From a virus, in IMG/VR virus record IMGVR_UViG_3300030333_005567, positions 1 to 24,395 of that record: a stretch of DNA of 24,395 nt, one strand, 5' to 3'. The notes beneath the pieces were generated by a model, which was not told where the DNA came from, did not search any database, and saw nothing but the letters and a program-made list of their open reading frames with translations. Numbering within the stretch: the first letter of the stretch is position 1; each line of letters begins with the position of its first letter. The translations under genes were made by a program, and so were the position numbers. Shown here piece by piece: positions 416 through 22,600 of this stretch.

Positions 416-424
416 TTCAAATGT

Positions 425-793: not shown

Positions 794-815
794 GATTTGA
801 AAGTAAGCTAACGTT

Positions 816-1865: not shown

Positions 1866-1873
1866 TTAAGAAC

Positions 1874-1898: not shown

Positions 1899-1923
1899 AA
1901 TGGTTTAAATTAATTGAGCATAG

Positions 1924-1934
1924 TATAATATAAG
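1924..1934 (+). promoter_or_regulatory. Possible promoter element before the signal-peptide gene
   Basis: TATAATATAAG lies 18 bases upstream of ATG 1952. It contains a perfect -10 hexamer (1924-1929) and also resembles a degenerate T4-type late element. No -35 box at a sensible distance is convincing. A promoter is expected here because a strong terminator ends just upstream. Confidence 0.4.
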
Positions 1935-1951
1935 TATATCAAACAAAGTAT

Positions 1952-2188: not shown

Positions 2189-2207
2189 TAAAAGTAAGAA
2201 CAAGAGG

Positions 2208-2215
2208 TATAAATA
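2208..2215 (+). promoter_or_regulatory. T4-type late promoter of the baseplate block
   Basis: The exact T4 late consensus TATAAATA lies 21 bases before the gp25 start. T4-like phages use this octamer with the gp55 sigma factor and the sliding clamp to transcribe virion genes. The short spacing to gp25 and the tight packing of the genes that follow suggest that it drives gp25, gp6 and the giant gene. Confidence 0.85.
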
Positions 2216-2236
2216 AAGAAAAACCTTCTGTTCATA

Positions 2237-2638: not shown

Positions 2639-2640
2639 AA

Positions 2641-4599
2641 ATGCCTTTTACTAAATTTACAAATCTTGATTTTGATCAGATAAAGACCTCCATCAAAGAT
2701 TATCTCCGTGCAAATTCAACATTTACGGATTTCGACTTTGAGGGGTCTAATTTTTCAATATTAATAGATACACTCGCTTATAATACCTATATTACTGCAT
2801 TTAACTCAAATATGGTTGTGAATGAATCTTTTTTAGATTCTGCAACGATTAGAGAAAATGTAGTTTCATTAGCACGTAATATTGGGTATGTTCCACGTTC
2901 TAAGACTGCTGCAACCGCCCGTATATCGTTTACAGCAAACTTTGGTGAAAGTATTAATGAAGATGATGATTTCACGATTGCAACGCTTAAAGCAGGATTA
3001 GTATGTATTGGAAATGCTAATGAAACCAATTATGTTCTTTCAACTTCAGAAAATATATCAGCACCAGTTGTAAAAAAAGAAATAGATGGTACACTGAATT
3101 ATATTGCTTCCTTTGAAGATATTGAAATTAAGGAAGGAACATTTTTAACTAGAATTTTTAACGTAAATACTTCTTTAGATCAAAGATTTATATTAAACAA
3201 TAAAGATATTGATACCTCTACCATTAAAGTATATGTTAAAGGTTCAAATGAGAGTGGATTAGGTAATGAATATTCATTAGTTGAGAATATTTTAAATATA
3301 GATTCTTCATCAGAGATCTATTTGATACAAGAAGTACAAGATGAAAGATATGAATTACTTTTTGGTGATGGTTTTATTGGTAAAAAATTAAATAATGCAG
3401 ATGTTATTACTGTTCAATACATCACAACTGATGGAAAAGAAGGAAATGGTATTGGAAAGAACAATAGCCTTCAATTTGCAGGAAAAATAGTACAACTTGA
3501 TACACAAAATGATACTGAAATACCAAAAACTATAGTTGGAGATACAGAAGTAGAAACAAATCAGATATCACAAAATGGTTCAGATATAGAATCAATAGAT
3601 TCTATTAAGTATTATGCTCCTAGAATATATTCTTCACAATATAGAGCAGTAACACCAAGAGATTATGAAGCAATTATTAAAAAAGTGTACCCTGAAACAG
3701 AGTCAGTTGCTGTTGTAGGTGGTGAAGAGTTGGATCCTCCTGAATTTGGAAATGTACTTATTAGTATAAAACCAAAAAATGGAACTTTTGTTTCAGATTT
3801 CAATAAATCTAGGATTTTATCCCAATTGAAACAATATACTGTATCTGGTATTAATCAAAGAATAGAAGATCTTAAGTTGCTATATGTGGAGGTTGTCTCA
3901 TCAGTTTATTATGATAATAATAAAGTTTCAAATATACAGTCTTTAAGATCACAAGTTATCAATTCTTTAGAGACTTATGCTAACTCTATTGATATGAATA
4001 AATTTGGTGGAAGATTTAAATATAGTAAAGTTCAACAAGTTATTGATCAAACTAGTACTGCTATTACATCTAACATTACCAGAGTGATCATTAGAAGGGA
4101 CTTGAAGGTGGTCTTTAATCAATTTGCACAATATGAGTTATGTTATGGTAATCGTTTCCATGTAAAGGCAAATGGATTAAACATAAAATCAAGTGGTTTT
4201 TATGTTTCTAGTAATACAGCACCAGTATACATTACGGATATTCCTAATGATGATCTAAAAACGGGAGTTTTGGCATTTATAGAAATCACAGAAGAGGGTG
4301 AATATAAAGTTATTGCACCATCTGCAGGAACTGTTGACTATCTTAAAGGTGAAGTAATGATTGATACTGTCAATATTACTAAAACAGTTGATGGATCTGA
4401 AGTAATTGAGATACAAGCAATTCCAGAATCAAATGATGTTGTTGGTCTTAAGGAATTATATCTTGATTTTAGTCTTTCGAAAAGTAAAATAAATATGGTT
4501 AGGGATGTGATTAGTTCTGGTGATGAAATTACAGGAACTACATTTGTTAATGATTTCTACACATCTAGTTATTTAAACGGACAATTAATAAGAGAGTAA
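2641..4599 (+). CDS. 6: Baseplate wedge subunit gp6
   Basis: This 652-residue protein is close to T4 gp6 (660 residues). The N-terminal segment (residues 31-90), including DFDFEGSNFSILIDTLAYNT, NESFLDSATIRENVV and IGYVPRS, is the signature of the gp6/baseplate J family. YRAVTPRDYEAII (334-346) is also characteristic, and the C-terminal half has the long beta/helical region with a GGRFKYS segment. gp6 is the central protein of each wedge; two copies pair with gp7 and form the inner ring that opens on sheath contraction. It is the equivalent of P2 gpJ. A GAGG (2624-2627) lies 13 bases before the start. The giant gene begins 7 bases after the stop. Confidence 0.95.
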   Translation: MPFTKFTNLDFDQIKTSIKDYLRANSTFTDFDFEGSNFSILIDTLAYNTYITAFNSNMVVNESFLDSATIRENVVSLARNIGYVPRSKTAATARISFTANFGESINEDDDFTIATLKAGLVCIGNANETNYVLSTSENISAPVVKKEIDGTLNYIASFEDIEIKEGTFLTRIFNVNTSLDQRFILNNKDIDTSTIKVYVKGSNESGLGNEYSLVENILNIDSSSEIYLIQEVQDERYELLFGDGFIGKKLNNADVITVQYITTDGKEGNGIGKNNSLQFAGKIVQLDTQNDTEIPKTIVGDTEVETNQISQNGSDIESIDSIKYYAPRIYSSQYRAVTPRDYEAIIKKVYPETESVAVVGGEELDPPEFGNVLISIKPKNGTFVSDFNKSRILSQLKQYTVSGINQRIEDLKLLYVEVVSSVYYDNNKVSNIQSLRSQVINSLETYANSIDMNKFGGRFKYSKVQQVIDQTSTAITSNITRVIIRRDLKVVFNQFAQYELCYGNRFHVKANGLNIKSSGFYVSSNTAPVYITDIPNDDLKTGVLAFIEITEEGEYKVIAPSAGTVDYLKGEVMIDTVNITKTVDGSEVIEIQAIPESNDVVGLKELYLDFSLSKSKINMVRDVISSGDEITGTTFVNDFYTSSYLNGQLIRE

Positions 4600-4606: not shown

Positions 4607-7600
4607 ATGATAGAAACTGGTTTTGACTCAAAGGTCAAAGTTCAACAAATTATTAGCAATCAGCTTCCTGAATTTTTATTGAGTGAAAGTCCTAATTCTG
4701 TTGACTTCTTTAAACAGTATTATATTTCACAAGAATATCAAGGAGGTCCGATTGATATATCGGATAATTTAGATGAATATTTAAGAGTAGATAATTTAAC
4801 ATCTGATGTAGTTAAGGGAAATACTACTCTTTCTGCTGGTATTACTACAGAAAGTACTACTATTACGGTTGCTAATACTAAAGGGTATCCAGATCATTAT
4901 GGTTTATTGAAAATTAATAATGAGATTATTACATATACTGGTCTTACTACCAATACATTTACTGGATGTATTCGTGGATTTAGTGGTATTACAAGTTATC
5001 ATGCAAAACTTAATGAAGAAGAATTAGTTTTTTCAACATCTGAAGTATCTTCTCATAATGAAGGTGAAAATGTTGAGAATTTAAGTGCTTTATTTCTTAA
5101 AGAATTTTTTAAGAAATTAAAATTTACTCTTGTTCCAGGAATGGATGGAGTAGATTTTAAAGAGGGTATTAATGTTGGTAATTTTATAAAAGAAGCAAGA
5201 TCATTATATGAATCAAAAGGAACTCCCGAATCTTTTAGAATTCTATTTAATGTGCTTTATGGGGAAACTCCTAAAATCATAAATCTAGAAGACTATTTGA
5301 TTAAACCATCCTCTGCAGAATATGTTAGAAGAGAAGTAATAATAGCAGAAGCAATAAGTGGGGAACCAAAGGATTTAATTGGACAAACTATCTACAAACT
5401 TAATGATTTAACCACTAATGCATCAATATCAGAGGTTGAACCATTTACTAGAGTTGGAGTAGCTTTAACTACTAATCAGCAATATTATAAAATTTCTCTA
5501 TTTTTGGGTCCTAATGATAAGGAAACATCAATACAAGGAACTTTTTCAATTACTCCAGCATCAAAATGTACAGAAACAGTTGCTATTGGTGCATCAGTAA
5601 TTTCTGTTGATTCTACAATAGGTTTTGGTGCAACAGGATTGTTATCTAAATCAGGAACAATTATTTCTGGAATTAACACAAATATTAATTACACTCATAA
5701 GAGTCTTAATCAATTTTTTGGATGTACTGGAATAGACAATGAGATTGAGAGTGGAGATACTATTAGAAATGATGATATTTATTTTGGTTATGCAAATGGA
5801 GATGTAAATAAAAAAGTTGAATTAAGATTAACAGGAGTATTATCAAAATTTGACCAAATATCAAAGAGTGTAGATATTGATGAGAATCAAATTATTTCTG
5901 TTAAGAATTTAGGAGATTTGATTAAAAACCCTACAAGAGATAGAACATATAAAGAAATTTTAGCTAATTCATGGATATACAATACAAGTGTAAGATATAA
6001 AATAGATGAGGGTGCAGGAGGAGACACTACTCTCAAATTCTTTGCTGATATTGATAGATCAAGTTTAAAACTTGGGGATTATGTAGAAATACTGAGAAGA
6101 GGATCTAATAGTGTTATTTCAGGTGATACATCTACTGTTTCTGTAACTGAGATTGTAGGGCAAAATAAGAATAACTGGTGGGATAAGAAATGTAATGAGA
6201 TTAATATTTCACCAAAAATACCAGATGGTACAATTGGGTATTTGGATCTTAGAAGAAAACTTTCTAGTCCTATTAGTGATAATGTTTTATTATCATCTCC
6301 AAATATTATTTCAGATGTACAAAATTTTTACGTTGATGGTACTGAGGAATTTTATATTGCTTCTAATTCACTTCCTACAGGTAATATAACTGGTGTTTCG
6401 ACAAATTACAGACACAATATAGATACTCGTATTCAAAGTGTTGTTGCGGCAGGATTGACAGGTTTTCTAGGTGATCTCAATTACAAAGAAATTCAATTTA
6501 ATAATAAAGTTCCATTTGTTAGTGGTGATGAAATTTATTATGAATATACAGGTATAAGCACTTTTGGAACTTATGTTGGGTTAGATACTGGAAATTATTT
6601 TGTAGGAATATCTGATGAAGATGATGGAAAGAGAATTAAATTATACAATAACAGAGCATTAATTAATAATGATGATTATATAAAATTAAATATTATTGGT
6701 AGAAATCTTTCTGATCCTGGCCATAAATTTACTTTAGCTTCGCAGCAAAGAAATATAATTGGACCTCAGAAAATATTAAGAAAATTCCCATTTAATACTA
6801 ATATTGATAATGGAGATCAAGTTGAAACGAAACCAGGTACTACTGGGGTATTAATTAATGGTGTAGAAATTAGTAATTATAAGGGTATCGATAAAATTTA
6901 TTATGGTCCATTATTATCTGTAGATGTTTTAGGTGAAGGTGATGACTATGATGTAGTTAATCCTCCTAAAATAGAAATATCTGCTGGTGTTGGTACTACT
7001 GCTATAACACAAGCAGTTCTTAGAGGATCTATTAAAGATGTTTTGGTAGATCCTCAAGGGTATGATGTTCAAAAAGTAATATCTATTACTGCTAGTGGTG
7101 GAAATGGAAGTGCTGTATTAGAACCAATAGTAATTCCTAGAAGTAGAGAAGTTAGTTTTGATGGAAGAACTTTAGTTTTTGGTGGTGGTATTAATACAAC
7201 TACTAATACTATTACTTTTGATAAAGATCATACTTTCTCAAATTTAGAAGAAGTAATTTATAAGGTTGGTACAGGAAATAGTTCTATTACTATTGGTGTA
7301 GGTAATTCAGCATTAGCTAACAATGCTAGTTATTTTGTAAATGTAGTTGATACAAAAACAGTTAGATTGCATGAATCCAGAAAAGATGCTGAACTTAACA
7401 TAAATCAAGTGTCCTTTAATGGACGAGTATCTGCTGGTATCCATAATTTTGCCACCTTACCCAATCAAAAGACTGTTATTGGGGTTAGAGTTGAAGATGG
7501 TGGTACATTTACTAACAGAAAATTACGTTTAACTCCTTCTGTTGGAGTGTCAACTGTATATAACACACTTAATTTTAAAAATCATGGATTTGAAGATGGA

Positions 7601-10600
7601 GATTTAGTTAATTATACCTTCCAAACAAGTGCAATATCAGGTCTTTCTACCGAAAATCAGTATTTTGTCAATAAAATAGACAATAATTCGTTCCAATTAT
7701 CTAATGCTGGTGTTGGTGGGACAATAATAGGCAATTATGAGAGAAAAGATGTTGTTAATTTTGCAAATAAGGGTGAAGGTTATCAATATTTTGCTTATCC
7801 AGACATTTCAGTCTCTTTAAAATACACTCCTGTTGGATTTGGCACCACTAGTCAGACAGTTGAGGAGATGGTATTGACTCCTTCTGTTCGAGGTAGCATT
7901 ATTGACACTTATTTGTATGAATCTGGAACAGGATATGGTTCAAGTATATTGAATTTTGAGAAAAAACCAATAATTTCTATAAAAAATGGTAAAGATGGCA
8001 ATCTAAAACCTATTTTTGTTAATGGAAAGATAGATCAGGTCAATATTCAATATGGTGGTGTTGAATATTTCTCAATTCCTACCTTAGAAGTAATAGATAG
8101 TTCTGGAAAAGGGTCAGGAGCTAAGTTAAGACCTGTTGTTACAGATGGTAGAATAAGTGATGTTGTAGTTGTTAATACTGGAATTGGGTATTCTCACTTA
8201 GATACGTCTATTAATGTTGTTTCAGCAGGAAAAAATGCAACTTTAGATGCTAAAGTTAGACCTTTAACTGTCAATTTAAGAGAAAAGTATAAAAAATATC
8301 CAGGAAGTGCATCTGATGGTTATAAATTAGAGGACAATAAAGATGAAGCTATTCTTTCAGAAGGTATAGAGAATACTTTACAGTATAATGTTTGTGCATA
8401 TGGAGAACCTTATAGGCAATCCTTTAACGAAGTAGGGACTGGAAATACTCAAGCTTCTAAGATTATTGGATGGGCTTATGATGGAAATCCAATATATGGT
8501 CCATATGGATACAGTAATGCTGGTCTTTCAACTAATCCACGACGTTTAGTTTCTGGATATACCTTAGATACATCTAATGTTGAAAATAGACCATCAGGGT
8601 TTAGTGATGGTTATTTTATAGAAGACTATAAATTTACAAATTCTGGAGATTTAGACAGAAATAATGGTAGATTTGGTAAAACACCTGAGTTTCCAGAGGG
8701 TGTTTATGCATATTTTGCAACTATAAAATCTGATTTGGACAATAATGAACCAGAATTCCCTTATTTTATTGGAAATTCTTATAGATCTACTCCAGTAACT
8801 CAAAATCTTAATCAAGAATTTGATTTTAAGGATTCGAATTTAATAAGAAATACTTTCCCATATAGAATTTCAGATAAAAACGTTGATAATGACTTTATAA
8901 TTGAGACTAATGAGATTGAAAGACAAAAAGTTGAGATAGAATCTGTTACAACTGGATCAGTAGAGAAATTAAATATTGTAAATTCAGGGAAAAATTATAA
9001 AATTGGTGATTTATTGACATTTGATGAAAGTGGTACGTCTGGTGGTGGGTTAAGAAGTAAAGTTTCATCACTAGAAGGTATTGATATTCTAAATGTCAGC
9101 ACAGGTACATCATCTTATACTGATAGGGTATTCAGTTGGGTTGATGAAAGTACTGTAAAAGTTACTGTTTTCCCTAGTCATGATTGGAAAAATAAAGATA
9201 ATGTTGTGGTTTCGGGATTTAGTACCACTTTAGCTTCTTTAAATGGATCTTATACTATTGGTGTTAGTTCATTAACTTCAGTTTTAAGTCAGAATTTGAA
9301 TTCTGGAACTGTAGGAATGTCTACCGATATATTTGTTTCGGATATTCCAACAGGTGTTTCTGTAGGTAGTACTTTAAGAATTGGTGCAGAATCTTTAAGA
9401 TTATTGAACATATTTAAAAATGAGAATATTTTAAGAGTACAAAGAGGTTCTGGAGGAGTTTCTCATACTGCATCATCTCCAATTACCTTTGTACCTGATT
9501 CATTTACTATTAAGAAATCTATTAGATATTTTGAATCTAAACCAACTGATAGGTTCTATTTCAACCCTCATAAAACTATTGGAGTAGGAGTTACTCCAGG
9601 AATTTCTATACCCATTAATTTCACTTTTGCTGGAATTGGAATTACTAGAGATGTTACAACTCAAAGCATTTATTTGGAAGATCATCCATTTAAGGATGCC
9701 CAAGAATTGACATTCTCTACAGGTGGTGGAAATGCTATCTTAATTTCAGATACTGCGGCTAGTGGAACATATAGTATGCCATCTACTGTATATGTTACTA
9801 ACTCTACAAAGAATAGTATTGGTATAAAAACAGGTATAGGTACTACAAGTGGAGATTTTAATGATGTATTTTTCCGTGGTAATGGTAGTAATATTAATGA
9901 TTATTCCTTTGCAAGTAATTACACCCAGCAAAAAGGTAGAATAGATCAATTTAATACAACTGTTGCATTATCAACAGCTCATGATTTAAAAGTTGGAGAT
10001 AAAGTAGTTTTAACTATTGAACCAGATTTAAATGTAGGTTTAGGAACAACAACTCCAGTTAAGGTAGAGAGGCAAACAACAACAGGATATTTATTACTTG
10101 ATCCAGTACAAGTCACTAATAGTGGAGTTAGTACTACAGCAGATTCCTTTACTATTACAAATCATAGATTTAATACTGGAGATAAAGTTTACTATGAGGT
10201 TATTAGTGGAACTTATCCTAGTGGTTTATCAGAAGGGACGTATTTCACATATGTAATTGATGTTGATACATTCCAGTTATGTAAAACTAATATTGATGCT
10301 ACTGGAGTTCCTCCTGTATATGTTAATTTTACAAATAATCCAACTGCTACACATAAATTCTCTAGAGTTAATCCTTCAATTGAAGTTGTTAATACAAATA
10401 GTTTAGTATTTGATTTAACTCATTCTTCTTTATCTGATTATAAGTTTAAGTTGTATTATGATAAAGAATTTAAAAATGAATTCACATCCATTAAATCTGA
10501 TACATTCAATATAACTGGTGTTGGAACTGTAGGTGTTGGAGCTAGTGTAATTGATTCTAGTCTTACTGTTGGATATAGTACTGCATTACCAAGGACATTA

Positions 10601-13600
10601 TATTATAATATTCAAAAATCTGGATTTATTAGTACATCTGACACAACGGTTCCAAATTATTCGGAAATAGTTTTTGTAGATAGTCATTATAATAGAAGTT
10701 ATGATATTGTTTCTATTGGTGCTTCTGCGTTTAATATAACGTTAGAGGATGATCCAGAAAGACTTTCTTATGAATCTAATCAATGTAATGTTTTAAAATA
10801 CACTACTACTTCATTAACCTCTAAAGGAGGAATTGAAAATGTTAACATTATTTCAGCAGGTTCTGGTTATAAGAAATTGCCTAGTTTTGTTGGATCTTCA
10901 TCCACTCTAGGTGAAGGTGCATATGTTATTCCTAGTTCAACAAAAATTGGTAATGCTAAGGAAATAAGGTTTATTAATGAAGGATTTGAATATTCATCTG
11001 ATTCTACTTTACGACCAGAAGCATTTATATCACCTTTTGTTGTTATTAATAATTCTAATACTATAGGAATTATTACAATTACTAGTGGTGGTGTAGATTA
11101 TATAAATGCACCTAATATTAAAGTTGTTAATTCAAATACAGGGCAAGAAATTGATAGTGGATTCCTTGAAGCAGATTTAATTGGTAGTACTATTGGTTCT
11201 GTTGATATAATAAATTCTCCAAGTGGACTTCCTGATGAACCTGTAAGGTTAGTAGCAGTTAATAATGATAATGGTGTTGGTATTGTAAGTGTACAATCTA
11301 ATGCAAGTGGTATATTTACTTGTTGGATAACAACTCCTTCAGTAGGATTTTCCACTTATCCTTTTAATGTTAATGATAAAGTTTATACTGAGGGTATTGA
11401 AAAGGTTGGTGCAGCTGGATCTGGATTTAACTCTTCTAATTGGGGATATGAGTTTGCTGTAGTTTCTGAGGTTGTTCCTGGCGGTGCTCCATTACCAGAA
11501 AATCCTTCTCAAAATAATGGAGTTAATTTCCGAGTAAGTATTGATGCTACTGGCGTAAGTACTAATACTGGAATTGCAAAAACTGATCAGAGTGCTGGTG
11601 CTTCTCTTATTAATGAGAAGAAATATCCTACATTTGTAGTTACACAAAAACCTGATTTGTTTATTGAGGGTGAAATATTAATTAGAGATTCTGTCGAATT
11701 AGATTTATATGTTTCAAAAACTGGAAGTGATTTTATTAAAGTTACTGGAAATGATATCTTAGTCAAGGGTGATAGAATTCTAGGAAAAGATTCTGGCACT
11801 TTAGCAACTGTTGATTCAATTACAGAATATAATGGAAGATATGTTGTTAATTTCTCAGTTAAAAAGGATATTGGATGGACAAATGAAATAGGAAAATTAA
11901 GTGTAGACAGTCAGGTAACACCTGATAATGATTATTATCAAAATCTTTCTTATAGCATTCAAAGTACTAAAGGATTTGACGAATTAAGAAGTCCTGTAAG
12001 TGCAATGCTTCATACTAGTGGTTTGAAGAATTTTGCGGATGTTGGAATTAGATCAACATCAACAGCTGTAGGACCATATGATGCTTCTCTTGGAAAGAGA
12101 ACTGGAATTGGTAGTGCAGACTTTACTGAAACTATTCAGGACTTGCTCGGTTATAATCGTGTAGATACTATTTACGATTATGATAGAGCAACTGATGGAT
12201 CTACAGATGGAAGTTATTCAACACTTATAGAATTTGAAAATAAGACTCTTAGTGATTATTTTAAGGCAAAAAGTAATGAAGTTATAGTTCTTGATGATAT
12301 TGATAAGTTATTCTCAAATTTGAGTGGAGAACCTAGCGAATTTTTAGATTTAATAGAACTACAATCTAATACACCATATCAAAATTTATTCATTAGAATT
12401 ACTAATGCGGATGGTACTGATATTCAGACATCAGAATTGATTATAATGAATAATGGAGGTGATATAACTTTAATAGAGAAGCAAAATATTAATGATAGTT
12501 ACTATATTGGAGACTTTAGTATTAGTGAAGAAGCTGGTTTACAGTATTTAAGATTTACTCCTTTACCTAATGCATATGATTATGACTATGATTTAAAATT
12601 AGTTAAAACAGAGTTTAATGCTGGTACTGGTATAGGAACTAATACTATAGGATTTGTTGATAAGGTTGGAACAATTAGTGTTGCTACTACCACTACATCA
12701 GGAGTAACGACTACTTCGGTTATTTCTGGAATTGCAACTGCTTATAATTCTTTCTATACAAGTAATCAATTACTTAATAGAACAACAAATGAAATGAATT
12801 ATGTTGATATATTTGTCACTCATGATGGTACAAATACATATATGTCTCAGGCTTATGCTGATAATAGTGAGAGAGATGCATATTCCGATTTATTGTTAGG
12901 ATCTTTTAGTGGAAATATTACTGGTAATACTTTCTCTTTAGATTTTGAAAATAGTTTAACTGATGAAATTGAAATTAGATCTAATATTGTTGGATTTGGT
13001 ACAACTAGTGTTGGAATTGGTACATATAGATTCCAAGTATCTGGTCAACCAGATGGATCAGAAAGATCTGCTATTTATCAATCTGATTACAGTTACACTT
13101 CTGGAACAAGAAATGTAGTGGGTTTCGATACCTCTCTCTTCAATTCAGTTAAGTCTGTAGTTGAGGTTAGTATTGGATCAACAAAAGCATTACATCAAAT
13201 TGTAATGAATCATAATACTACTGATGTATATTTGCAGCAAGGTCCTTATCTTTCTGTTGGAAGTATAGAAACACTTGATACAAAACTTGGAATTGGAACT
13301 TTTGGTGGAGAATATGTTGCTTCTAATTTTGTAATGAAATTTTATCCTAATGCTGAGTTTGCATCAGATAATATTGAGGTATCTTCATTAAGTTTGGGTA
13401 TGTATTCAAGTTTAGATTCAGATAACTTATCTAATGTTACAGATTTAACTTATGGAAAAGTAACTGAATCACTTAATGCATTTTCATATAATGCTATTGA
13501 TGGTGAGAGAATTAATAGAACTAGTTTCCCATTAACAGTAGATGGTCTTAAAATATTTGCAAAACAATTTAATCCTAGCGATTCTAATGCATTAAATCTT

Positions 13601-16600
13601 ACAACTGGAAAATTCAGTATTACAGACCATTTCTTTAGGACTGGTGAGGAATTAATTTATAAAGCAGGTTCCACATTTGTCGGTGTTGGTTCAACTGCTA
13701 TGCAGTATGAGAGTGCTGAAGGAGTAGATGAATTACCTTCACCTGTTTTTGCTATTAGAGAGGATGCTGATAATTTCTATATTGCAACGACAAAAGCATT
13801 AGCAAATGCAGGAACTGCAGTGACCTTTGTTAGTGTGGGTGAAGGTAATTCTCATGAATTTTCTATGAGTTTAGCTAATACAAAAAATATTATTACTCTT
13901 GATAATATAATTCAATCACCAATATCATATAGTCCTGTATCACATACATTAGAGAATAATATTGAATCTGTGTTTGGTAGTACTGGTATTGGTACTACAT
14001 CAACTACATTTTCCTTAAGTGGTATATCATCTATTTCTCTTAATGATGTTTTGAAGATTGATGATGAATTTGTTAAGGTTATTGGAGTTGGTATGGGTAC
14101 TGAGACTTACGGTCCAATTGTTGCTGGTATCGGAACTACTTCTCTTGTTACTGTAGAAAGAGGAGTTCTAGGTACAGGAGTTACAGCACATTCCAATACT
14201 TCAACTGCTCAGTTATATAAGGGATCTTATAATATTGTTGGAAACAATATACATTTTATAGATCCTCCTAGAGGAAATCCCCAAATAACTAAAACTAAGG
14301 GTAATTTAGAATTCCCAAGAACAGAATTTAATGGTAGAGTATTCTTAAGAGATAATTATGATACTAACCAAATATATGATGATATTTCCCATGAATTTAC
14401 TGGTATAGGTCAGACTTTTGATTTGAAAGTTGATGGATCTGGAATCGTTGGTATGGGAACTACTGGTGGCAATGGACTTGTTATTATAAATGGAATTTAT
14501 CAAAGACCAACTACACCAAATAATCCTTTAAACAATTTTATAATTAAAGAACCATCTGGAGTATCTACAAATATTACATTTACAGGTATTACTAGTGTAA
14601 CTGAAAATGATATAGTTATTAATCCATCTGATATTAATCAAAATCAGTTACCAAGGGGTGGAGTTATAATTTCTTTAGGTTCAACTCCAGGTTTGGGATA
14701 TGCCCCTCTTGATGGAGCAGTAGGTTATCTAGAAGTTGGTGCTGGTGGATCGATTACAAGTGTTGTTGGTATTGCTACGACTGGACCTGCTTTTGGAATT
14801 AGTACAGCAACTTATAATCATGTAACTGGTAGATTGGATATAGTTACAACCGAATCAACTAATTTTGAACTTAGAATTATAGATCAAGTTAAATTGGTAG
14901 GTTTAGAATTCACTTGTGCTACTGCTCATGCTGGAGTAACAACTACTATATTCCCTGAAGCAGCAATTGGTGCAGGTAATACCGATAAATCTTATCCTAT
15001 ATTAAATACTGAACCAACTCTTTATACCCATACCTTTGTAAGTGCTACTTCTACTGCTGTTAATGGATCATTACAACCAACTGCAGCAACTTATGATTCT
15101 TTGAGTGGAGATTTGGTACTAACATTTGCTAGTGCTCATGGAATAAGTAATGGTTCTAATATTACAATTGCTAATAATTCAATAATATTTACATGTAGTA
15201 GAGATGAACATGCTACACAACATAGTTATCCTAGATCAACTGATCCTGCTTCTGGAACTGGATTGACTGTTTCTAATGCAACTGCAAAAACTCTTACTGT
15301 TAATGTTGGAAGTTCGAATAATGGATTACGTAGATTTACAACAAATGTAGGAACCAGCACTATACCTCATACTTATGTTGGTGGTGGTAGTGTGGTAACA
15401 TATTATGCTAATGCTAATTTTGGATCAGGATATAGAGGAACAGTTTCTATCGGAGTAACTGATCATCCATTTACTCATAGATTTGTTAGTGCTGGTATTG
15501 GTTCTATTACCGATAATACAACTGCAACTCATACAGCATCAAATGCTAGTTATGATGGAGGTACTGGTGATTTAATATTAACAATTCCTTCACATGGGTT
15601 AACCGATTCTAATACAATTCAAATAGACAATAATTCTTTAGTATTTACGTGTTCAAAGGATGAATATAGTAGTCATCATTCTTATCCAAGAACAACTGAT
15701 CCTGTCTCTGGAATACAAACAGCAATTACTAATGCAACAACAAATACAATTACTGTTAATGTTGGATCTAGTGTTGGTTCTGGTGCCACAGTTACAGCCA
15801 CAGTCGGTGCTGGAGGTACTTTGGCCTTTGCAATTACTGGACCAGGTACAAATTATGCCAATCCACAAATAAACATTCCTGAACCCTCCTACGCAGGCTT
15901 AGAAGTTACTGGTGTTTCTAGAATAGGTGTTGGTAATACAACTGATACAGGTACTGGTTTACTCCTCAACTGTAAGGTATCACCAATAGCATATGGTGTA
16001 GATCATAAATTTGTAAGTGCGGTTGCTGGTAGTATTACGGCAACTGGCATAGGAACTACTACTGCTACTGATGCAACTTATGATCCGTTAACTGGAAATT
16101 TGGTTTTAACAATTGCAGGACATGGATTAGATACTGATAATACTATTGGTATTGATACTGGTTCTTTAGTCTTCAGATGTGCTCAAGATAATTATGCTAG
16201 TGTACATTCTTATCCTCGTGCTACTGATCCTATTGCTCTTGCTATGCCTATAAGTATTGGATCAACAACAGTTAATACAATTACTGTTAATGTTGGAGTA
16301 GCAACTGATATTATTGGTGTTACTACTCAATTTGGAGTAACTGAATGGGAGATGGTAAGAAATGGGTATGGATTTAAACGTGGTGATATATTCACACCAG
16401 TTGGATTGGTAACTGCTTTAGGTCTTTCTAGTCCTATAAGAACTGCTGAGTTTGAGGTGTTGGATACATTCCATGATGCCTTCTCTGCGTGGCAATTTGG
16501 ACAACTTGATTATATGGATGATATTAAGGATCTCCAAGATGGTAGTAGAAGAAGATTCCAATTAAAGTATGATGGAGATCTTCTAAGTTTTGAAGTTGAT

Positions 16601-18025
16601 AAGGAAAGTGGTTATAACTTTATTAATCTTGAAAATTGTTTATTGATTGTGATAAATGGTGTTGTGCAAGAACCAGGAGTAGCATACAAATTTAATGGAG
16701 GAACATCATTTGTATTTACAGAACCACCTGCAGCTGAGGATGATGTTTCAATCTATTTCTATAGGGGATCATCACAAAGTGATACTGAGTTAGTTACTAC
16801 TATAAAACCACAAGTTGAAGCAGGTGATGATGTTCAATTAATGGGAATATCTGATAATATTAATCAAAATGAAAGAACAATATCAGCAATCTTTAATTCT
16901 AATACTCTAGAAACTAATATCTATAGTGGTCCAGGAATTACTACGGAAGAGAAATCTTTAAACTGGACTAAACAGAAGAAAGATAAGATAGTTAATGGAA
17001 ATATAATTTACAAGACCAGAAACAGTATAGAAGCACTAATTTTCCCAACAGCAAAGGTTATTAGTGGATTCTCAACTAGTGATAATACTCAATTCTTTGT
17101 AGATAATGTAGATTTATTTGGTTATGATGCACCATTCCTCAATAATGCTGCTGCATTTATTGTTGATAAGAGTACTACACCTATTGCTGCTGATTTAACA
17201 GCAAATGTTTCTACTGCTGGTACTATTACTTCTTTAACTATTGTTAGTGGTGGTTCTGGATACGTTGGATCAACAACTTCAGTTTCTGTTGGAATACCTA
17301 CAGTTGGTATTGGTAGTTATATTCAGGCAAATGGTCTAGTGGGTTTTGGAACAACAGCAACAGCAACAGCAACAATAACTAATGGTACTATAACAGCCAC
17401 TACGATTGTTAATCCAGGATTTGGATATACTAATACTAATGCACCATTAGTTATAGCACCATCCCCAACTTATAAGACAGAGACTGTTACTGGTATTAGT
17501 AGTGTTCAAGGATTTACTGGAATCATAACTGGTATTGGTACTACTGCTGGTATAGGAACTGCTTTGGCACTTAAATTCCATTTAGATTCAACTACAACTA
17601 ATTGGTCTAATCAAACTTTAAAGGCTGGTTATCCAATTTCTATTTTCGATACTTCAATCGGAACTGGAGTAACTTCAGTCTATGAATCAGGTAATGGTGC
17701 AGTTGGAATTGGTACAACATTCCTAGATAACATTTATAGATTAGTTTATGATCCTGCATATACTGGTACTTTAGGAATTATTACATGTAATATTGCTTCT
17801 GAAACTGGTCTTAGTGGATTAAGTACTAGTGGAGAAAAATATTCTCCTGTAGGAGCGTTCTCTTGGGGTAGATTGTATCAGAAGAGTGGGTCACTTACTA
17901 GAGCAACAAATCCTATAGGAATTGCCCTTAGTAACTATACTGTAAATTCAGGTTTAACCACTTTCCCCACCCTTCAAAGAAGGGATGAAGGTATGAGAGA
18001 TAGTGGAGCTATCAAGTCATCTTAA
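4607..18025 (+). CDS. Giant modular virion structural protein (4472 residues) in the gp7 position
   Basis: A single 13.4-kb frame encodes a virion protein of a type found in T4-like cyanophages. The N-terminal ~230 residues include SKGT (203-206) in SKGTPESFRILFNVLYGE, recalling the KGT motif of the P2 gpI/gp7 wedge family. The rest is Gly/Thr/Ser/Asn-rich and beta-prone, built from recurring modules: (a) 'eIiyytg...RG..G..a.aHa' units near nt 4850-5010, 9330-9490 and 13970-14240; (b) 'NHxFxxGDxVxY ... Y.V..id...f.L' units near 7205, 7570, 10140 and 13610; (c) at least nine GGxGY-type units; (d) three HSYPR repeats at 3475-3900; (e) a YHYH-like domain at about 1260-1395. It also has an LLIVINGVVQEPG fibre-type segment near residue 4013. 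No enzyme motif, signal peptide or membrane segment was found. By gene order (25-6-this-8) it replaces T4 gp7, which has 1032 residues. Fibre or outer-baseplate function is inferred. Confidence 0.85.
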   Translation: MIETGFDSKVKVQQIISNQLPEFLLSESPNSVDFFKQYYISQEYQGGPIDISDNLDEYLRVDNLTSDVVKGNTTLSAGITTESTTITVANTKGYPDHYGLLKINNEIITYTGLTTNTFTGCIRGFSGITSYHAKLNEEELVFSTSEVSSHNEGENVENLSALFLKEFFKKLKFTLVPGMDGVDFKEGINVGNFIKEARSLYESKGTPESFRILFNVLYGETPKIINLEDYLIKPSSAEYVRREVIIAEAISGEPKDLIGQTIYKLNDLTTNASISEVEPFTRVGVALTTNQQYYKISLFLGPNDKETSIQGTFSITPASKCTETVAIGASVISVDSTIGFGATGLLSKSGTIISGINTNINYTHKSLNQFFGCTGIDNEIESGDTIRNDDIYFGYANGDVNKKVELRLTGVLSKFDQISKSVDIDENQIISVKNLGDLIKNPTRDRTYKEILANSWIYNTSVRYKIDEGAGGDTTLKFFADIDRSSLKLGDYVEILRRGSNSVISGDTSTVSVTEIVGQNKNNWWDKKCNEINISPKIPDGTIGYLDLRRKLSSPISDNVLLSSPNIISDVQNFYVDGTEEFYIASNSLPTGNITGVSTNYRHNIDTRIQSVVAAGLTGFLGDLNYKEIQFNNKVPFVSGDEIYYEYTGISTFGTYVGLDTGNYFVGISDEDDGKRIKLYNNRALINNDDYIKLNIIGRNLSDPGHKFTLASQQRNIIGPQKILRKFPFNTNIDNGDQVETKPGTTGVLINGVEISNYKGIDKIYYGPLLSVDVLGEGDDYDVVNPPKIEISAGVGTTAITQAVLRGSIKDVLVDPQGYDVQKVISITASGGNGSAVLEPIVIPRSREVSFDGRTLVFGGGINTTTNTITFDKDHTFSNLEEVIYKVGTGNSSITIGVGNSALANNASYFVNVVDTKTVRLHESRKDAELNINQVSFNGRVSAGIHNFATLPNQKTVIGVRVEDGGTFTNRKLRLTPSVGVSTVYNTLNFKNHGFEDGDLVNYTFQTSAISGLSTENQYFVNKIDNNSFQLSNAGVGGTIIGNYERKDVVNFANKGEGYQYFAYPDISVSLKYTPVGFGTTSQTVEEMVLTPSVRGSIIDTYLYESGTGYGSSILNFEKKPIISIKNGKDGNLKPIFVNGKIDQVNIQYGGVEYFSIPTLEVIDSSGKGSGAKLRPVVTDGRISDVVVVNTGIGYSHLDTSINVVSAGKNATLDAKVRPLTVNLREKYKKYPGSASDGYKLEDNKDEAILSEGIENTLQYNVCAYGEPYRQSFNEVGTGNTQASKIIGWAYDGNPIYGPYGYSNAGLSTNPRRLVSGYTLDTSNVENRPSGFSDGYFIEDYKFTNSGDLDRNNGRFGKTPEFPEGVYAYFATIKSDLDNNEPEFPYFIGNSYRSTPVTQNLNQEFDFKDSNLIRNTFPYRISDKNVDNDFIIETNEIERQKVEIESVTTGSVEKLNIVNSGKNYKIGDLLTFDESGTSGGGLRSKVSSLEGIDILNVSTGTSSYTDRVFSWVDESTVKVTVFPSHDWKNKDNVVVSGFSTTLASLNGSYTIGVSSLTSVLSQNLNSGTVGMSTDIFVSDIPTGVSVGSTLRIGAESLRLLNIFKNENILRVQRGSGGVSHTASSPITFVPDSFTIKKSIRYFESKPTDRFYFNPHKTIGVGVTPGISIPINFTFAGIGITRDVTTQSIYLEDHPFKDAQELTFSTGGGNAILISDTAASGTYSMPSTVYVTNSTKNSIGIKTGIGTTSGDFNDVFFRGNGSNINDYSFASNYTQQKGRIDQFNTTVALSTAHDLKVGDKVVLTIEPDLNVGLGTTTPVKVERQTTTGYLLLDPVQVTNSGVSTTADSFTITNHRFNTGDKVYYEVISGTYPSGLSEGTYFTYVIDVDTFQLCKTNIDATGVPPVYVNFTNNPTATHKFSRVNPSIEVVNTNSLVFDLTHSSLSDYKFKLYYDKEFKNEFTSIKSDTFNITGVGTVGVGASVIDSSLTVGYSTALPRTLYYNIQKSGFISTSDTTVPNYSEIVFVDSHYNRSYDIVSIGASAFNITLEDDPERLSYESNQCNVLKYTTTSLTSKGGIENVNIISAGSGYKKLPSFVGSSSTLGEGAYVIPSSTKIGNAKEIRFINEGFEYSSDSTLRPEAFISPFVVINNSNTIGIITITSGGVDYINAPNIKVVNSNTGQEIDSGFLEADLIGSTIGSVDIINSPSGLPDEPVRLVAVNNDNGVGIVSVQSNASGIFTCWITTPSVGFSTYPFNVNDKVYTEGIEKVGAAGSGFNSSNWGYEFAVVSEVVPGGAPLPENPSQNNGVNFRVSIDATGVSTNTGIAKTDQSAGASLINEKKYPTFVVTQKPDLFIEGEILIRDSVELDLYVSKTGSDFIKVTGNDILVKGDRILGKDSGTLATVDSITEYNGRYVVNFSVKKDIGWTNEIGKLSVDSQVTPDNDYYQNLSYSIQSTKGFDELRSPVSAMLHTSGLKNFADVGIRSTSTAVGPYDASLGKRTGIGSADFTETIQDLLGYNRVDTIYDYDRATDGSTDGSYSTLIEFENKTLSDYFKAKSNEVIVLDDIDKLFSNLSGEPSEFLDLIELQSNTPYQNLFIRITNADGTDIQTSELIIMNNGGDITLIEKQNINDSYYIGDFSISEEAGLQYLRFTPLPNAYDYDYDLKLVKTEFNAGTGIGTNTIGFVDKVGTISVATTTTSGVTTTSVISGIATAYNSFYTSNQLLNRTTNEMNYVDIFVTHDGTNTYMSQAYADNSERDAYSDLLLGSFSGNITGNTFSLDFENSLTDEIEIRSNIVGFGTTSVGIGTYRFQVSGQPDGSERSAIYQSDYSYTSGTRNVVGFDTSLFNSVKSVVEVSIGSTKALHQIVMNHNTTDVYLQQGPYLSVGSIETLDTKLGIGTFGGEYVASNFVMKFYPNAEFASDNIEVSSLSLGMYSSLDSDNLSNVTDLTYGKVTESLNAFSYNAIDGERINRTSFPLTVDGLKIFAKQFNPSDSNALNLTTGKFSITDHFFRTGEELIYKAGSTFVGVGSTAMQYESAEGVDELPSPVFAIREDADNFYIATTKALANAGTAVTFVSVGEGNSHEFSMSLANTKNIITLDNIIQSPISYSPVSHTLENNIESVFGSTGIGTTSTTFSLSGISSISLNDVLKIDDEFVKVIGVGMGTETYGPIVAGIGTTSLVTVERGVLGTGVTAHSNTSTAQLYKGSYNIVGNNIHFIDPPRGNPQITKTKGNLEFPRTEFNGRVFLRDNYDTNQIYDDISHEFTGIGQTFDLKVDGSGIVGMGTTGGNGLVIINGIYQRPTTPNNPLNNFIIKEPSGVSTNITFTGITSVTENDIVINPSDINQNQLPRGGVIISLGSTPGLGYAPLDGAVGYLEVGAGGSITSVVGIATTGPAFGISTATYNHVTGRLDIVTTESTNFELRIIDQVKLVGLEFTCATAHAGVTTTIFPEAAIGAGNTDKSYPILNTEPTLYTHTFVSATSTAVNGSLQPTAATYDSLSGDLVLTFASAHGISNGSNITIANNSIIFTCSRDEHATQHSYPRSTDPASGTGLTVSNATAKTLTVNVGSSNNGLRRFTTNVGTSTIPHTYVGGGSVVTYYANANFGSGYRGTVSIGVTDHPFTHRFVSAGIGSITDNTTATHTASNASYDGGTGDLILTIPSHGLTDSNTIQIDNNSLVFTCSKDEYSSHHSYPRTTDPVSGIQTAITNATTNTITVNVGSSVGSGATVTATVGAGGTLAFAITGPGTNYANPQINIPEPSYAGLEVTGVSRIGVGNTTDTGTGLLLNCKVSPIAYGVDHKFVSAVAGSITATGIGTTTATDATYDPLTGNLVLTIAGHGLDTDNTIGIDTGSLVFRCAQDNYASVHSYPRATDPIALAMPISIGSTTVNTITVNVGVATDIIGVTTQFGVTEWEMVRNGYGFKRGDIFTPVGLVTALGLSSPIRTAEFEVLDTFHDAFSAWQFGQLDYMDDIKDLQDGSRRRFQLKYDGDLLSFEVDKESGYNFINLENCLLIVINGVVQEPGVAYKFNGGTSFVFTEPPAAEDDVSIYFYRGSSQSDTELVTTIKPQVEAGDDVQLMGISDNINQNERTISAIFNSNTLETNIYSGPGITTEEKSLNWTKQKKDKIVNGNIIYKTRNSIEALIFPTAKVISGFSTSDNTQFFVDNVDLFGYDAPFLNNAAAFIVDKSTTPIAADLTANVSTAGTITSLTIVSGGSGYVGSTTSVSVGIPTVGIGSYIQANGLVGFGTTATATATITNGTITATTIVNPGFGYTNTNAPLVIAPSPTYKTETVTGISSVQGFTGIITGIGTTAGIGTALALKFHLDSTTTNWSNQTLKAGYPISIFDTSIGTGVTSVYESGNGAVGIGTTFLDNIYRLVYDPAYTGTLGIITCNIASETGLSGLSTSGEKYSPVGAFSWGRLYQKSGSLTRATNPIGIALSNYTVNSGLTTFPTLQRRDEGMRDSGAIKSS
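8385..8790 (+). other. Degenerate YHYH-like domain within the giant protein
   Basis: Residues about 1260-1395 carry GWAYDGNPIYGPYG (from 1288), DLDRNNGRFG (from 1348), PEFPEGVYAYFAT (about 1360-1372) and PYFIG (about 1385). This is the order of landmarks in the YHYH family: GxAxDGxPIYG, then DxxNGR, then the YHYH strand, then PYxxG. The defining tetrapeptide reads YAYF at 1367-1370, so both histidines that would serve as metal ligands are missing. The fold is probably kept for structure, while metal binding is probably lost. Confidence 0.6.
15029..16300 (+). repeat. Three tandem HSYPR-type protein repeats in the giant gene
   Basis: Three related units of about 95-100 residues begin at nt 15029, 15476 and 16004 (residues 3475, 3624, 3800). 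Each runs (H)xFVSA, YDxxxGxLxLTxxxHG, xxNSLxFxC, D, HSYPRxTDP, and ends xTITVNVG. Spacers of variable Gly-rich sequence separate them. The DNA has diverged, but a 24-base tract at 15743-15766 recurs exactly at 16274-16297. A degraded fourth unit with YNHVTG and FTCATAH may precede them (about 14760-15000). I recall the same unit in other marine phage virion proteins, without a named function. Confidence 0.8.
17354..17374 (+). repeat. In-frame hexanucleotide microsatellite
   Basis: ACAGCA is repeated three times and followed by ACA, encoding alternating Thr-Ala within the C-terminal part of the giant protein. Because the unit is six bases, slippage would change the length by two residues without shifting the frame. 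Confidence 0.7.
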
Positions 18026-18057: not shown

Positions 18058-19659
18058 ATGTCTGCTATAGTAACAGATCAATTTCGAATATTTAATGCGG
18101 GTAATTTTGTAGATTCGGTCTTATCTGATAATAATTCTTATTATGTTTTTCTAGGTCTTTCCAATCCAGGTACTGATCCATCCATCGTTGGTTTTGGGAG
18201 AACTGATACTTGGAATAGTAGTCCTCCAGCACCGACAGATAATCTTCAATATGAAACCCAGTATAGAAGTACTTCTCTTTTTGGGAAAAAGGTTAATAGT
18301 ACTAATATAAGAAGAGTTATAAGAAAGGTTGATTGGAAATCTAATACTCCTTACGATATGTATAGGCAGGATTACAGTATTAGTAATATGGCTCCAGTTT
18401 CAAAAACTGGAAGATTGTATGATGCAAATTATTATGTAGTTAATAGTGATTATAATGTTTATGTGTGTTTAGATAATGGATCTTTTGGTTATGAGGGAGA
18501 TGGTACTGATAATTATAAACCAGGCAACTCTAAAGATGAACCTACCTTTACTGATTTAGAACCATCAGCTGCAGGATCTAGTAATGATGGATATATTTGG
18601 AAATATCTATTTTCAATTTCTCCTAGTGATATTATAAAATTTGACTCTACAGAATATATTGTTGTTCCTAATGATTGGGAAACATCAACTAATTCTCAAA
18701 TTCAAAAAGTTAGAGAAGCTGGCGATTCTACAATTAATTTTAACCAAATTAAAACTGTTTATATTGCAGATGGTGGTAGAGATTACATAAATCAAACTAC
18801 CACAGTTGATATATTAGGAGATGGAACAGGAGCAAAAGCATCGGTTACTACTTCTAATGGAGCTGTTACTTCGGTAGTCATAACAGCTGGAGGAACTGGA
18901 TATACATATGGAATGGTTGATTTAAAGGTCTTTCAACCTACAGATTTTACTCCTGCGGATGCTGCACGATTAATAGTTATTATACCTCCTTCTAGAGGTC
19001 ATGGTTATGACATCTATAAAGAATTGGGAGCTGATAGAGTATTGGTTTATGCTAGATTTGATGATTCTACTAAAGATTTTCCAACTGATGCAAAATTTGC
19101 TCAAGTGGGAATTATTAAAAATCCATCAACATCAACAGCTATTGGAGTAACATTTACTGGAACTGAGTATTCTTCTTTAGGTGCAATTAAATTTGATCCT
19201 GATAATTTTACAGATAGTGCTTCTATTGTAATAGGTACTAAGATAACTCAGACTAAAAATAATGGTGACGTTGCAAAAGCATATGTTGCTTCTTATGATA
19301 GTGATACTGGAGTTTTGAAATATTATCAAGATAGATCTTTATATTATAACTCAACTACATCTGATCAAACAGATTATGTTGGAGTTAGTAGTGATGCTAA
19401 GGTAATTTCATTTGAAACAGGAACTAAAGCAATTAATTTTGCAGGTGGAAGTCCTGGTGAAGAGACGATACAAGATTTTACTGGTATTACCACAACAGTA
19501 GGAACTAAAGAAATAAATTTAGGAGTCAGTTTTACAAAAGGTCTTGCTGATCCTGAGATAAATAAAACAACTGGTGATGTCATTTACATTGACAATCGAA
19601 AGATAGTCACACGTGATGATAGACAAAAAGAAGACATCAAAATCATCCTGGAATTTTAA
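18058..19659 (+). CDS. 8: Baseplate wedge subunit gp8, enlarged by insertions
   Basis: The 533-residue product shares T4 gp8 landmarks in order: AIVTDQFR (3-10), FGRTDTW (46-52), an APTD segment, VIRKVDW (87-93), DGYIWKYLFSISP (177-189), EYIVVPNDW (199-207), FAQVGIIKNP (347-356), GDVIYIDNRKIV (506-517) and the C-terminal IKIILEF. T4 gp8 has 334 residues, so about 200 are extra. They fall between about 235-335, where two GGxGY-type units (239-243 and 278-282) occur, and 360-500, which I do not recognise. In T4, gp8 dimers bind the wedge and contact gp7 and gp10. The gene has its own late promoter and is followed 7 bases later by the DUF4815 gene. The core assignment is firm; the role of the insertions is unknown. 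Confidence 0.9.
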   Translation: MSAIVTDQFRIFNAGNFVDSVLSDNNSYYVFLGLSNPGTDPSIVGFGRTDTWNSSPPAPTDNLQYETQYRSTSLFGKKVNSTNIRRVIRKVDWKSNTPYDMYRQDYSISNMAPVSKTGRLYDANYYVVNSDYNVYVCLDNGSFGYEGDGTDNYKPGNSKDEPTFTDLEPSAAGSSNDGYIWKYLFSISPSDIIKFDSTEYIVVPNDWETSTNSQIQKVREAGDSTINFNQIKTVYIADGGRDYINQTTTVDILGDGTGAKASVTTSNGAVTSVVITAGGTGYTYGMVDLKVFQPTDFTPADAARLIVIIPPSRGHGYDIYKELGADRVLVYARFDDSTKDFPTDAKFAQVGIIKNPSTSTAIGVTFTGTEYSSLGAIKFDPDNFTDSASIVIGTKITQTKNNGDVAKAYVASYDSDTGVLKYYQDRSLYYNSTTSDQTDYVGVSSDAKVISFETGTKAINFAGGSPGEETIQDFTGITTTVGTKEINLGVSFTKGLADPEINKTTGDVIYIDNRKIVTRDDRQKEDIKIILEF

Positions 19660-19665: not shown

Positions 19666-22600
19666 ATGGCACAGAAAAAAGATTTAAATATAAGTCCTTA
19701 TTATGATGATTTTGAATCGGATAATAATTTTTACAAAGTTTTATTTAAACCAGGTTTTCCCGTTCAAGCTAGAGAATTAACTAATTTACAGTCTATTTTA
19801 CAAAATCAGATTGAAGATTTTGGTAGTCATATGTTTAAAGAGGGATCTATAGTTATCCCTGGTGCTCCTACATATGATGATGAATTTGATGCTGTAAAAC
19901 TTAATGCCACACAGTTTGGAGTTGATATTTCTTTATATACAGATCAACTTATAGGTAAAGTAGTAGAAGGATCAGTAACTGGAGTAAAAGCTGTTGTAGA
20001 TTTTGTTGCTTTACCTGATTCAAATAATGTACAAGATTTAACCATTTATGTAAAATATAATACTGGTACTCTTGATAGAACCGCATTTGTAGATGGTGAA
20101 TCTTTAATAGTAAAAGAAAATATAGTTTATGGTAGTACCACAATTAATGCTGGAACTGCAGTTGCTACATTATTATCTACTGATGCTACTGCCACTGGTT
20201 CTGCTGCTTCTGTGGCTGATGGTGTGTATTTTATTAGGGGAACTTTTGTTAATGTTTCCAAACAAACTATAGTTTTAGATTATTATAGTAATACTCCATC
20301 ATATAGAGTTGGATTGCAGATTGATGAGCAAATAATTACTGCAAAAGATGATCCTTCATTATATGATAATGCAAAAGGATTTACTAATTATGCTGCTCCA
20401 GGAGCAGATAGATTAAAAATTTCTTTAACTCTTGTTAAAAAGGAAATATCCGATAAGAATGATACCGATTTTGTTGAGATATTAAGAGTTCAAGAGGGTA
20501 GAATTAGAAAAATTACTACGAAGACAGATTATAATATAATTAAAGATTATTTAGCTGAGAGAACATTTGAAGAATCTGGAAATTATTCCCTTCAACCTTT
20601 TAATATAATTGCTAATAATTCATTAAATGATAGAATGGGAAATGGTGGATTATTCTTCGGTGATCAAAATACTGATGAAGGTAATACTCCTTCAGACGAT
20701 TTGATGTGTTATAGTGTTTCTGGTGGTGAAGCTTATGTAAAAGGATATGATGTAGTAACAGATTCTGTAACTATTTTAGATGCAAATAAAACAAGAGATG
20801 TTGAAAAAATAGATGCTGCTAATGTTCCTTTCACAATGGGATCTCTTTTAGTTTGTAATAATTTAAAGGGACAACCTCAATATAGAAAAGTTATTGATTT
20901 GTATGATCAATTGAATTCTACTGGAACAGTAATTGGAAAGGCAAGAGTATATTCAGTTACTCCTAAAGATAATACTTATTCAGGTGCAAGTAGTAAATGG
21001 AATGTTCGTCTATATGACATCCAAACTTATACTAAATTAACATTAAATCTTGATGTATCAAATACTCAAATTAAAGAGACTTATTTTATAAAAGGTAAAA
21101 ATAGTGGTGCAACTGGATATGCTACAGCAGCTGGTGGTGGTTTAACAACTGTTTATGTGAGACAGACTTCTGGTACCTTTATGGTCGGAGAACAGATTCT
21201 TATTAATGGAGTTGATACACTTCCTCGTTCTATTACCGCAATTGAGGCTTATACTGGTAGTGATATTAAATCAGTAAAACAGACTGCAACTTCTCCATAT
21301 GTACAAAATTTTACAGCAGATGCACGATTAAATACTGTTGATTTACCTAATGGTATTACCGCAGTTCAAGTATCTAGTGGTACTATGACGTTTGTTGGAG
21401 GTGTCATTTCAGGTATTAAAGCTAATGACATAATTAAAGTTAAACCTACTGCATCTGCAGATGGTTCAAGTGACTTATTTTTTGTAAGAGTAACAGAAGT
21501 CGCTGCTGATGCATTAACAGCAACAGTTGCTGATATTGGTCAATCTGTAGCAGGTGTATATAAAGGAACTGGTGCAGGATCTTTGGGTGCTTGCAATGCA
21601 TGGTTAGGTCGTTCTAGAGTTGATGATATTGAAGGAGGTTTGTATGAAAGACTTCCCGATTCTAATATTTCATCAGTTGATCTTTCATCTTCAGTTCTTA
21701 GACTTTCTGCTCAAGTAACTGGTATTGATGCCGTTGGATCAGCATCAACTATTAGTTTTAGTGATGTTAAAGATGGATCAGGTTCAGGAATATCTACAGC
21801 ATTTTTTGAAGCTTATAATTTAAATAGATATGCTTATCATTATGGAAGTAATACAGGAGTTGGAACTATAACTTCAGACTCATTCAAGTTACTTGGAGAT
21901 GGTTCGAAGGTACAATTTACTGGATTAAATGCTACTGATACTGATGGAGTTATTGGTATAACTGCTAAGAAGCAAGGTATTCAAAGTAAAATAAAAAATT
22001 ATATAAGAAGTCAAATATTAACTGTTGATAAATCTAGTTTAGAAGGATCTGGTAGTACTGCAGGAAGTACACGTAATGATGGATTGACGTATAATGGTGA
22101 GGCTTATGGATTAAGAGTTCAGGATGATTCAATATCTTTGAATGTTCCTGATGTATCAAAAGTTTTAGCTGTTTATGAGTCTCTTGATACTAGTGCACCA
22201 ACATTAGATACTATTACATTAACTGCTACTGCATCTGTAGGAACTAATGTAATTATAGGTGAAAATGTAGTTGGTAAAACTAGCAATACAATTGCAAGAG
22301 TTGTTACTAATAATGGATCTACACCTTCTAGTGGTGGAGCAAATAGATTAGGTGTAGTTTATCTAAATGAGAAGAGATTTAGTAAGTATGAAGATGTTGT
22401 ATTTCAAGAATCAAATATAACAACTACTCTTCAAGCGATTAATGAAGGTACAACAGATGGTCAATATCAAAATATTACAAATTCTTTCACTTTAGATAAA
22501 GGTCAAAGACAACAATATTATGATTTTTCTAGATTGAATAGAAATAGAACTGCATCAGTACCATCAAAACAATTATTAGTTGTATATGATTTTTATAGTG

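Follow-up and report, generated by a model that had tools for sequence, protein, structure and literature searches.

A probable gp7-type baseplate wedge protein of 4,472 residues in a cyanomyovirus, with a T4 gp7-like core region and a long modular arm

The window analyzed here, a 24,395-base virus record from a P-SSM2/S-SRM01-like cyanomyovirus, carries late structural genes in series on the plus strand, on which all features described below lie. Among them is a gene of 4,472 codons (4607..18025, +), whose product has a calculated mass of 480.6 kDa. Profile comparisons show homology between the first ~300 residues of this giant protein and the helical core region of T4 gp7. The best explanation, to which we give a probability of about 0.85, is that the giant is a gp7-type baseplate wedge protein, including a role in the core bundle and a peripheral arm. 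Cyano- and pelagimyophages have been said to lack gp7 and to have VrlC in its place (PMC7029224), whereas database annotation identifies the giant as gp7. The present analysis settles this conflict at the homology level; it adds a controlled test, in which the giant is gp7-type and VrlC is not, an inventory of repeats, and the identification of one repeat family behind much of the length variation.

Results

A single frame within the wedge gene cluster

The frame begins with ATG and contains no internal stop, as the first-pass annotation had described. By our own estimate, a random frame at ~32% G+C would meet a stop about every 13 codons; a chance origin for 4,472 open codons was therefore excluded. 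Upstream lie the genes for the baseplate wedge proteins gp25 (2237..2638; PF04965, E = 3e-15) and gp6 (2641..4599; PF21379, E = 3e-17), the latter being the expected partner in the core bundle. Downstream are gp8 (18058..19659; PF09215) and a VrlC/DUF4815-type structural gene (phrog_358; 19666..24393), which was recognized by gene calls, Pfam and PHROGs and is cut by the window end. HHalign aligned the gp6 and gp8 neighbors over their full lengths to T4 gp6 and T4 gp8 (P = 100 for both). The order gp25–gp6–giant–gp8–VrlC/DUF4815 is that of a wedge cluster, in which the giant gene takes the place between gp6 and gp8, like T4 gp7. The earlier view of the gene as a virion or tail gene of a cyanomyovirus, and as a baseplate-wedge component, is supported.

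Several neighbors show features of their own. The gp8 of the window is 533 aa long, against 334 in T4, and its extra middle part holds an inserted family B module (aa 230–293) of a kind common to the giant. The VrlC/DUF4815-type gene is itself giant (2.2–2.8 kaa in relatives), and no relation of its product to T4 gp6–gp10 was found. A 251-aa gene upstream of gp25 (816–1571; phrog_1574) has a weak glycosyltransferase match in PHROGs.

The giant gene is a member of a known family

PHROGs placed the giant in phrog_2885, ‘baseplate wedge subunit’, with 3351 bits (aa 2–3816 against profile positions 2–3634 of 4179). The full-length profile match and the shared locus that define the cyanomyovirus giant gp7 were thus both observed. 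The P-SSM2 gene at the same position measures 15,588 bp and has the annotation gp7, ‘baseplate wedge initiator’ (AAX44489, 5195 aa), and the S-SRM01 counterpart (11,688 bp, 3895 aa) carries the label ‘baseplate wedge initiator’. Further counterparts measure 12,945 bp in S-CAM7, 12,678 in ACG-2014f, 14,250 in S-T4, 14,637 in Sf-CH8, 13,365 in P-HM2, 12,924 in P-TIM68 and 18,231 in Syn9, and about 5.7 kb in S-B68. Protein lengths within phrog_2885 span about 1.9 to 6.1 kaa. From these lengths at the same locus, the giant is a real gene of a known kind and of ordinary size for its family. That the gene is undescribed or of unusual size is not supported: it belongs to an annotated family, is called gp7 at the same place in P-SSM2, P-HM2 and S-SSM7, and is exceeded in length by the P-SSM2 version.

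Two isolates have the nearest full-length relatives: S-SRM01, 44% identical over 3.4 kaa, and P-SSM2, 38% identical. Identity among relatives is 37–64% along most of the chain. The N-terminus of S-SKS1 is also near (57%), and an IMG/VR contig, L009, is 89% identical across the first 3,798 residues. P-SSM2 gp7 and its S-SRM01 counterpart resemble the giant in gene order, in repeat families A–E, in the YHYH domain and in the C-terminal region, and align with it over nearly the whole chain (38–44% identity), but differ in the number of tandem family E copies and in total length. Syn9 gp101 (6076 aa, ‘structural protein, putative fiber’) occupies the same locus after gp25 and gp6 and shares the core domain and the YHYH region. 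Unlike the giant, however, it carries 13 copies of family B and none of family A, its core domain is enlarged by an insertion of about 500 aa, and it gives no single continuous alignment with the window protein. The cluster C proteins S-CREM2 ORF122 and S-B68 (about 1.94 kaa) have in common with the giant the core, the YHYH domain and part of the C-terminal repeat region, but lack most of its middle modules.

A join of separate genes during assembly, raised in the first-pass annotation, was checked and rejected, since independent isolates (S-SRM01, S-T4, S-CAM7, ACG-2014f, Sf-CH8, P-TIM68, P-HM2, P-SSM2 and Syn9) and many IMG/VR contigs have single frames of 3.9–6.1 kaa at this locus.

Some relatives have broken versions of the gene. 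In S-SSM7 (L090, 17986–37077), two ~9-kb genes, both called gp7, replace the giant and match window aa 9–2626 and 3385–4459; a 1-kb ‘virion structural protein’ gene lies between them, and the second has about 14 family E modules. The S-SKS1 gene (L002, 16992–29384) is spread over four overlapping frames, and its first ~7 kb carry no gene annotation. The window protein matches it nearly continuously over the first two junctions, but about aa 3232–3683 are unmatched at the third. Three IMG/VR records divide the gene between two overlapping frames, with the break near window aa 950 in L083 (6444–19057), 1149 in L085 (4761–16714) and 907 in L025 (3703–8573). The broken frames of S-SKS1 and these three records may be sequencing errors or real splits, and a programmed frameshift was also considered.

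The N-terminal region aligns with the core of T4 gp7

For the comparison with T4, we built profiles of the giant N-terminus (121 sequences), VrlC (43 sequences), T4 gp7 (27 sequences) and other T4 baseplate proteins. With HHalign, aa 198–298 of the giant profile (5198..5500) aligned directly to T4 gp7 732–813 (P = 93.3, E = 2.6e-7). When a beta insert (aa 65–152) was removed, the alignment extended to T4 gp7 644–813 (P = 93.9), into the Pfam gp7 helical domain, which corresponds to T4 gp7 643–689. Restricting the giant profile to aa 1–300 gave P = 94.8 and E = 5.2e-8. The controls were clean: T4 gp6, gp8, gp9 and gp10 reached P of at most 0.1 and reversed gp7 0.3, while the best of 40 column shuffles scored 23.9 compared with 65.5 for the real alignment. 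In a PDB profile search with the N-terminal alignment, a T4-type gp7 (9f4a) ranked first of 177,635 sequences (E = 8.8e-4), with the same motif aligned. No relation was seen between the giant and T4 gp8, gp9, gp10 or VrlC, and HHalign detected no homology between VrlC and T4 gp7 (P at most 0.2). The HHalign values of 93–95 with clean controls, together with the PDB profile search, thus identify the giant by profile homology as gp7-type in its core region, the only part that can be aligned to T4 gp7.

Less sensitive comparisons gave little. A plain sequence search of the whole giant against the PDB found nothing, and the window protein alone returned only YHYH from Pfam and nothing from NCBIfam. 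The Pfam models for gp7 domains V and VI (Gp7_5th, Gp7_6th) and the helical model had no match on the window protein; the fifth and sixth were found in T4 gp7. We did not count the absence of Gp7_5th and Gp7_6th as defining, given that the 242-residue XM1 gp17 is called an orthologue of T4 gp7 (PMC10457771). PF23786 (‘Baseplate_wedge’) was touched by 44 of 54 N-terminal relatives (best E = 4e-7), but was dropped as proof of gp7 identity because T4 gp7 itself does not match that model.

The core domain is composed of two parts. The first half (aa 1–64, 4607..4798), assigned from the insert-free HHalign alignment, has a predicted helix-turn-helix at aa 12–43. The second half (aa 153–240, 5063..5326), defined by profile alignments, bears the conserved motif Y..KG..ESF..LF..LYGE. 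Between them lies the beta insert (4799..5062), which holds the first family C module and is indicated by the repeats and the AlphaFold2 model; Syn9 has about 500 residues inserted at the same point. T4 gp7 (1032 aa) is like the giant in its position between gp6 and gp8 and in the core region (T4 644–813). It differs in that about 640 residues precede its core, whereas the core of the giant is at the very N-terminus; T4 gp7 also lacks families A–E and has no sequence match to the giant outside the core.

AlphaFold2 models were computed for both ends of the chain and are used here as support for secondary structure only. In the model of aa 1–450 (pLDDT 69, pTM 0.40), the N-terminus is helical and contains the beta insert, with helices placed at low to moderate confidence at aa 12–43, 159–175 and 190–218. 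That of aa 3956–4472 (pLDDT 73, pTM 0.51) is almost all beta; it covers the conserved C-terminal region (16472..18022), which is also delimited by alignments and whose ~500 residues retain 42–44% identity to P-SSM2 and S-T4. Foldseek searches of both models against the PDB gave nothing that reached E = 0.001, and no gp7-like structure was found. A resemblance of the C-terminal model to the N-termini of T7-type tail fibers was set aside, as the Foldseek matches were weak (E about 0.4–0.7).

Five repeat families cover 41% of the chain

Internal repeats were sought by comparing slices of the family profile with the whole profile, using the reversed profile as control, and were then modeled as HMMs. 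Real repeats were found by this self-comparison, in five families above the control. Unless stated otherwise, the modules below were detected by both profile self-comparison and HMM. Family A (H.F..GD.V.Y type) has six copies, at aa 621–710 (6467..6736), 860–951 (7184..7459), 980–1069 (7544..7813), 1683–1743 (9653..9835; partial or weak), 1837–1927 (10115..10387) and 2997–3088 (13595..13870). The five copies of family B (GxGY type) are at aa 766–842 (6902..7132), 1139–1217 (8021..8257), 2067–2132 (10805..11002), 2147–2213 (11045..11245) and 4198–4277 (17198..17437). Family C is present four times, at aa 78–140 (4838..5026), 315–380 (5549..5746), 1580–1642 (9344..9532) and 3132–3202 (14000..14212), and family D as two tandem copies, at aa 2633–2748 (12503..12850) and 2763–2878 (12893..13240). 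Family E has five copies, mostly in tandem near the C-terminus: a divergent one at aa 3189–3284 (14171..14458), tandem modules at aa 3468–3568 (15008..15310), 3617–3720 (15455..15766) and 3798–3897 (15998..16297), and a partial one at aa 3722–3785 (15770..15961; HMM).

Of the 4,472 residues, 1,831 (41%) fall within strict HMM families, and 3,013 (67%) are reached when every self-link that beats the best control score is counted. No repeats lie in the first ~64 residues, in residues 153–240 or in the YHYH stretch, and most of the last 500 residues are likewise free of them. The earlier picture of a protein made almost entirely of recurring beta modules therefore stands in part: the repeats are real and fall into at least five families, but their extent was overstated, and the beta character is seen at moderate confidence in the two models, which span residues 1–450 and 3956–4472.

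In close relatives with full-length genes, we counted 5–7 copies of family A, 4–9 of B, 4–5 of C, 2 of D and 1–15 of E. Protein length rises with the family E count (Spearman 0.77, n = 33 complete genes, kinship ignored), by about 149 aa per copy. With the same count method, the 89% identical L009 has one family E copy fewer than the window.

Namesake histidines are missing from the YHYH domain

A YHYH domain (PF14240, profile positions 87–183) matches aa 1277–1374 (8435..8728) with 82.3 bits, against a Pfam cut-off of 25. By alignment, its namesake YHYH motif reads YAYF in the window (aa 1367–1370), with loss of the namesake histidines. Among 94 aligned family sequences, the first His is present in none and the second position is H in 14. 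Phage YHYH domains have been predicted to be zinc-dependent hydrolases on the basis of a histidine triad plus an aspartate (PMC7824862). Our check concerned the namesake motif positions. Judged by these residues, the YHYH copies of this family more likely serve a structural role.

Discussion

Alternatively, the giant could be mainly a tail fiber or adhesin that is anchored in the wedge via a short gp7-like domain and has host binding as its main job. Modular beta repeats whose copy number varies would suit such a protein, as would the ‘putative fiber’ annotation of Syn9 gp101 and the listing of YHYH among carbohydrate-binding or host-recognition domains (PMC7029224). We nevertheless regard this as unlikely, though it is the alternative with the most to recommend it: identity is sustained over most of its length, and conservation rather than hypervariability marks the C-terminal ~500 aa, unlike a typical receptor-binding tip. 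In addition, a separate YadA-domain gene has been highlighted as a main site of adaptation (PMC6224464), and the mutated genes named in part of another report include gp8 and the short fibers (PMC9910659). A role as a tail-associated hydrolase that depends on metal and has a part in breaching the envelope is suggested by the strength of the PF14240 match and the prediction for phage YHYH domains, but is highly improbable in view of the YAYF motif and the rarity of the histidines across the family.

It is also improbable that gp7 is absent from cyanomyophages, with VrlC in its place and the giant only an accessory receptor-binding structural protein. That reading has the published statement behind it, and plain hmmscan of the window protein indeed finds no Pfam gp7 domain; however, it is the giant N-terminus, and not VrlC, that aligns with the T4 gp7 core, and the PDB profile search and gene order agree. 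Least credible of all is a frame that joins separate genes through misassembly or yields several products. The broken frames of S-SKS1, L083, L085 and L025 and the two separate genes of S-SSM7 could be read in this way, yet many independent isolates and contigs have a single frame with the same layout.

Based on the homology of its core, we propose a plausible arrangement for the gp7-type giant. The N-terminal helices would pack with two gp6 chains to form a (gp6)2-gp7 core bundle, which would start wedge assembly with one giant per wedge and six per particle. One copy per wedge, as the first-pass annotation had supposed, is expected by analogy, because each wedge of XM1 and A-1(L) contains a single gp7-type protein, as does that of T4 according to the same papers (PMC10457771, PMC10966104). 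The six copies of a particle would have a calculated weight of about 2.9 MDa. The beta insert and the long C-terminal arm would project outward, hold or extend peripheral parts through fiber attachment or surface contact, and take the place of the separate outer domains of T4 gp7. Such a peripheral arm is, we infer, the likely function of the modular region. The solved baseplates of Vibrio phage XM1 (gp17, 242 aa) and A-1(L) (gp32), compared here from the papers, contain gp7-type proteins with an N-terminal helical core, as in the giant, but without its modular arm. In XM1 gp17, an unresolved insert in domain I and a C-terminal tail are both embedded in spike density and bind the spikes (PMC10457771), a description to which the giant may be likened and which supports, by analogy, an insert and arm that organize peripheral attachments. 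In A-1(L), the long fiber is held by a wedge insertion domain that belongs to the gp6-type gp31 (PMC10966104). A shorter family member is present in virions: S-CREM2 ORF122 (77594–83407), homologous over 99% of the S-B68 gene, was identified with 91 unique peptides at 27.2% coverage (PMC10665884, Table 3). S-SSM7 encodes equivalents of the two chain ends as separate genes, which shows that not every relative depends on a single chain.

Near the end of the giant, the tandem family E modules could act as a length-adjustable spacer. More speculatively, and with the odds rather against it, the cyanomyovirus gp7 arm may be an accordion, in which gain and loss of tandem family E copies (1 to 15) sets arm length and with it fiber placement or host reach, while the wedge core and the C-terminal region stay conserved.

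Although cyanomyoviruses abound in the ocean, our literature search turned up no baseplate structure of a marine cyanomyovirus. For cryo-EM, the gp7-type reading predicts that each wedge core anchors a ~480-kDa chain, whose length would vary among these viruses mainly by one tandem repeat family.
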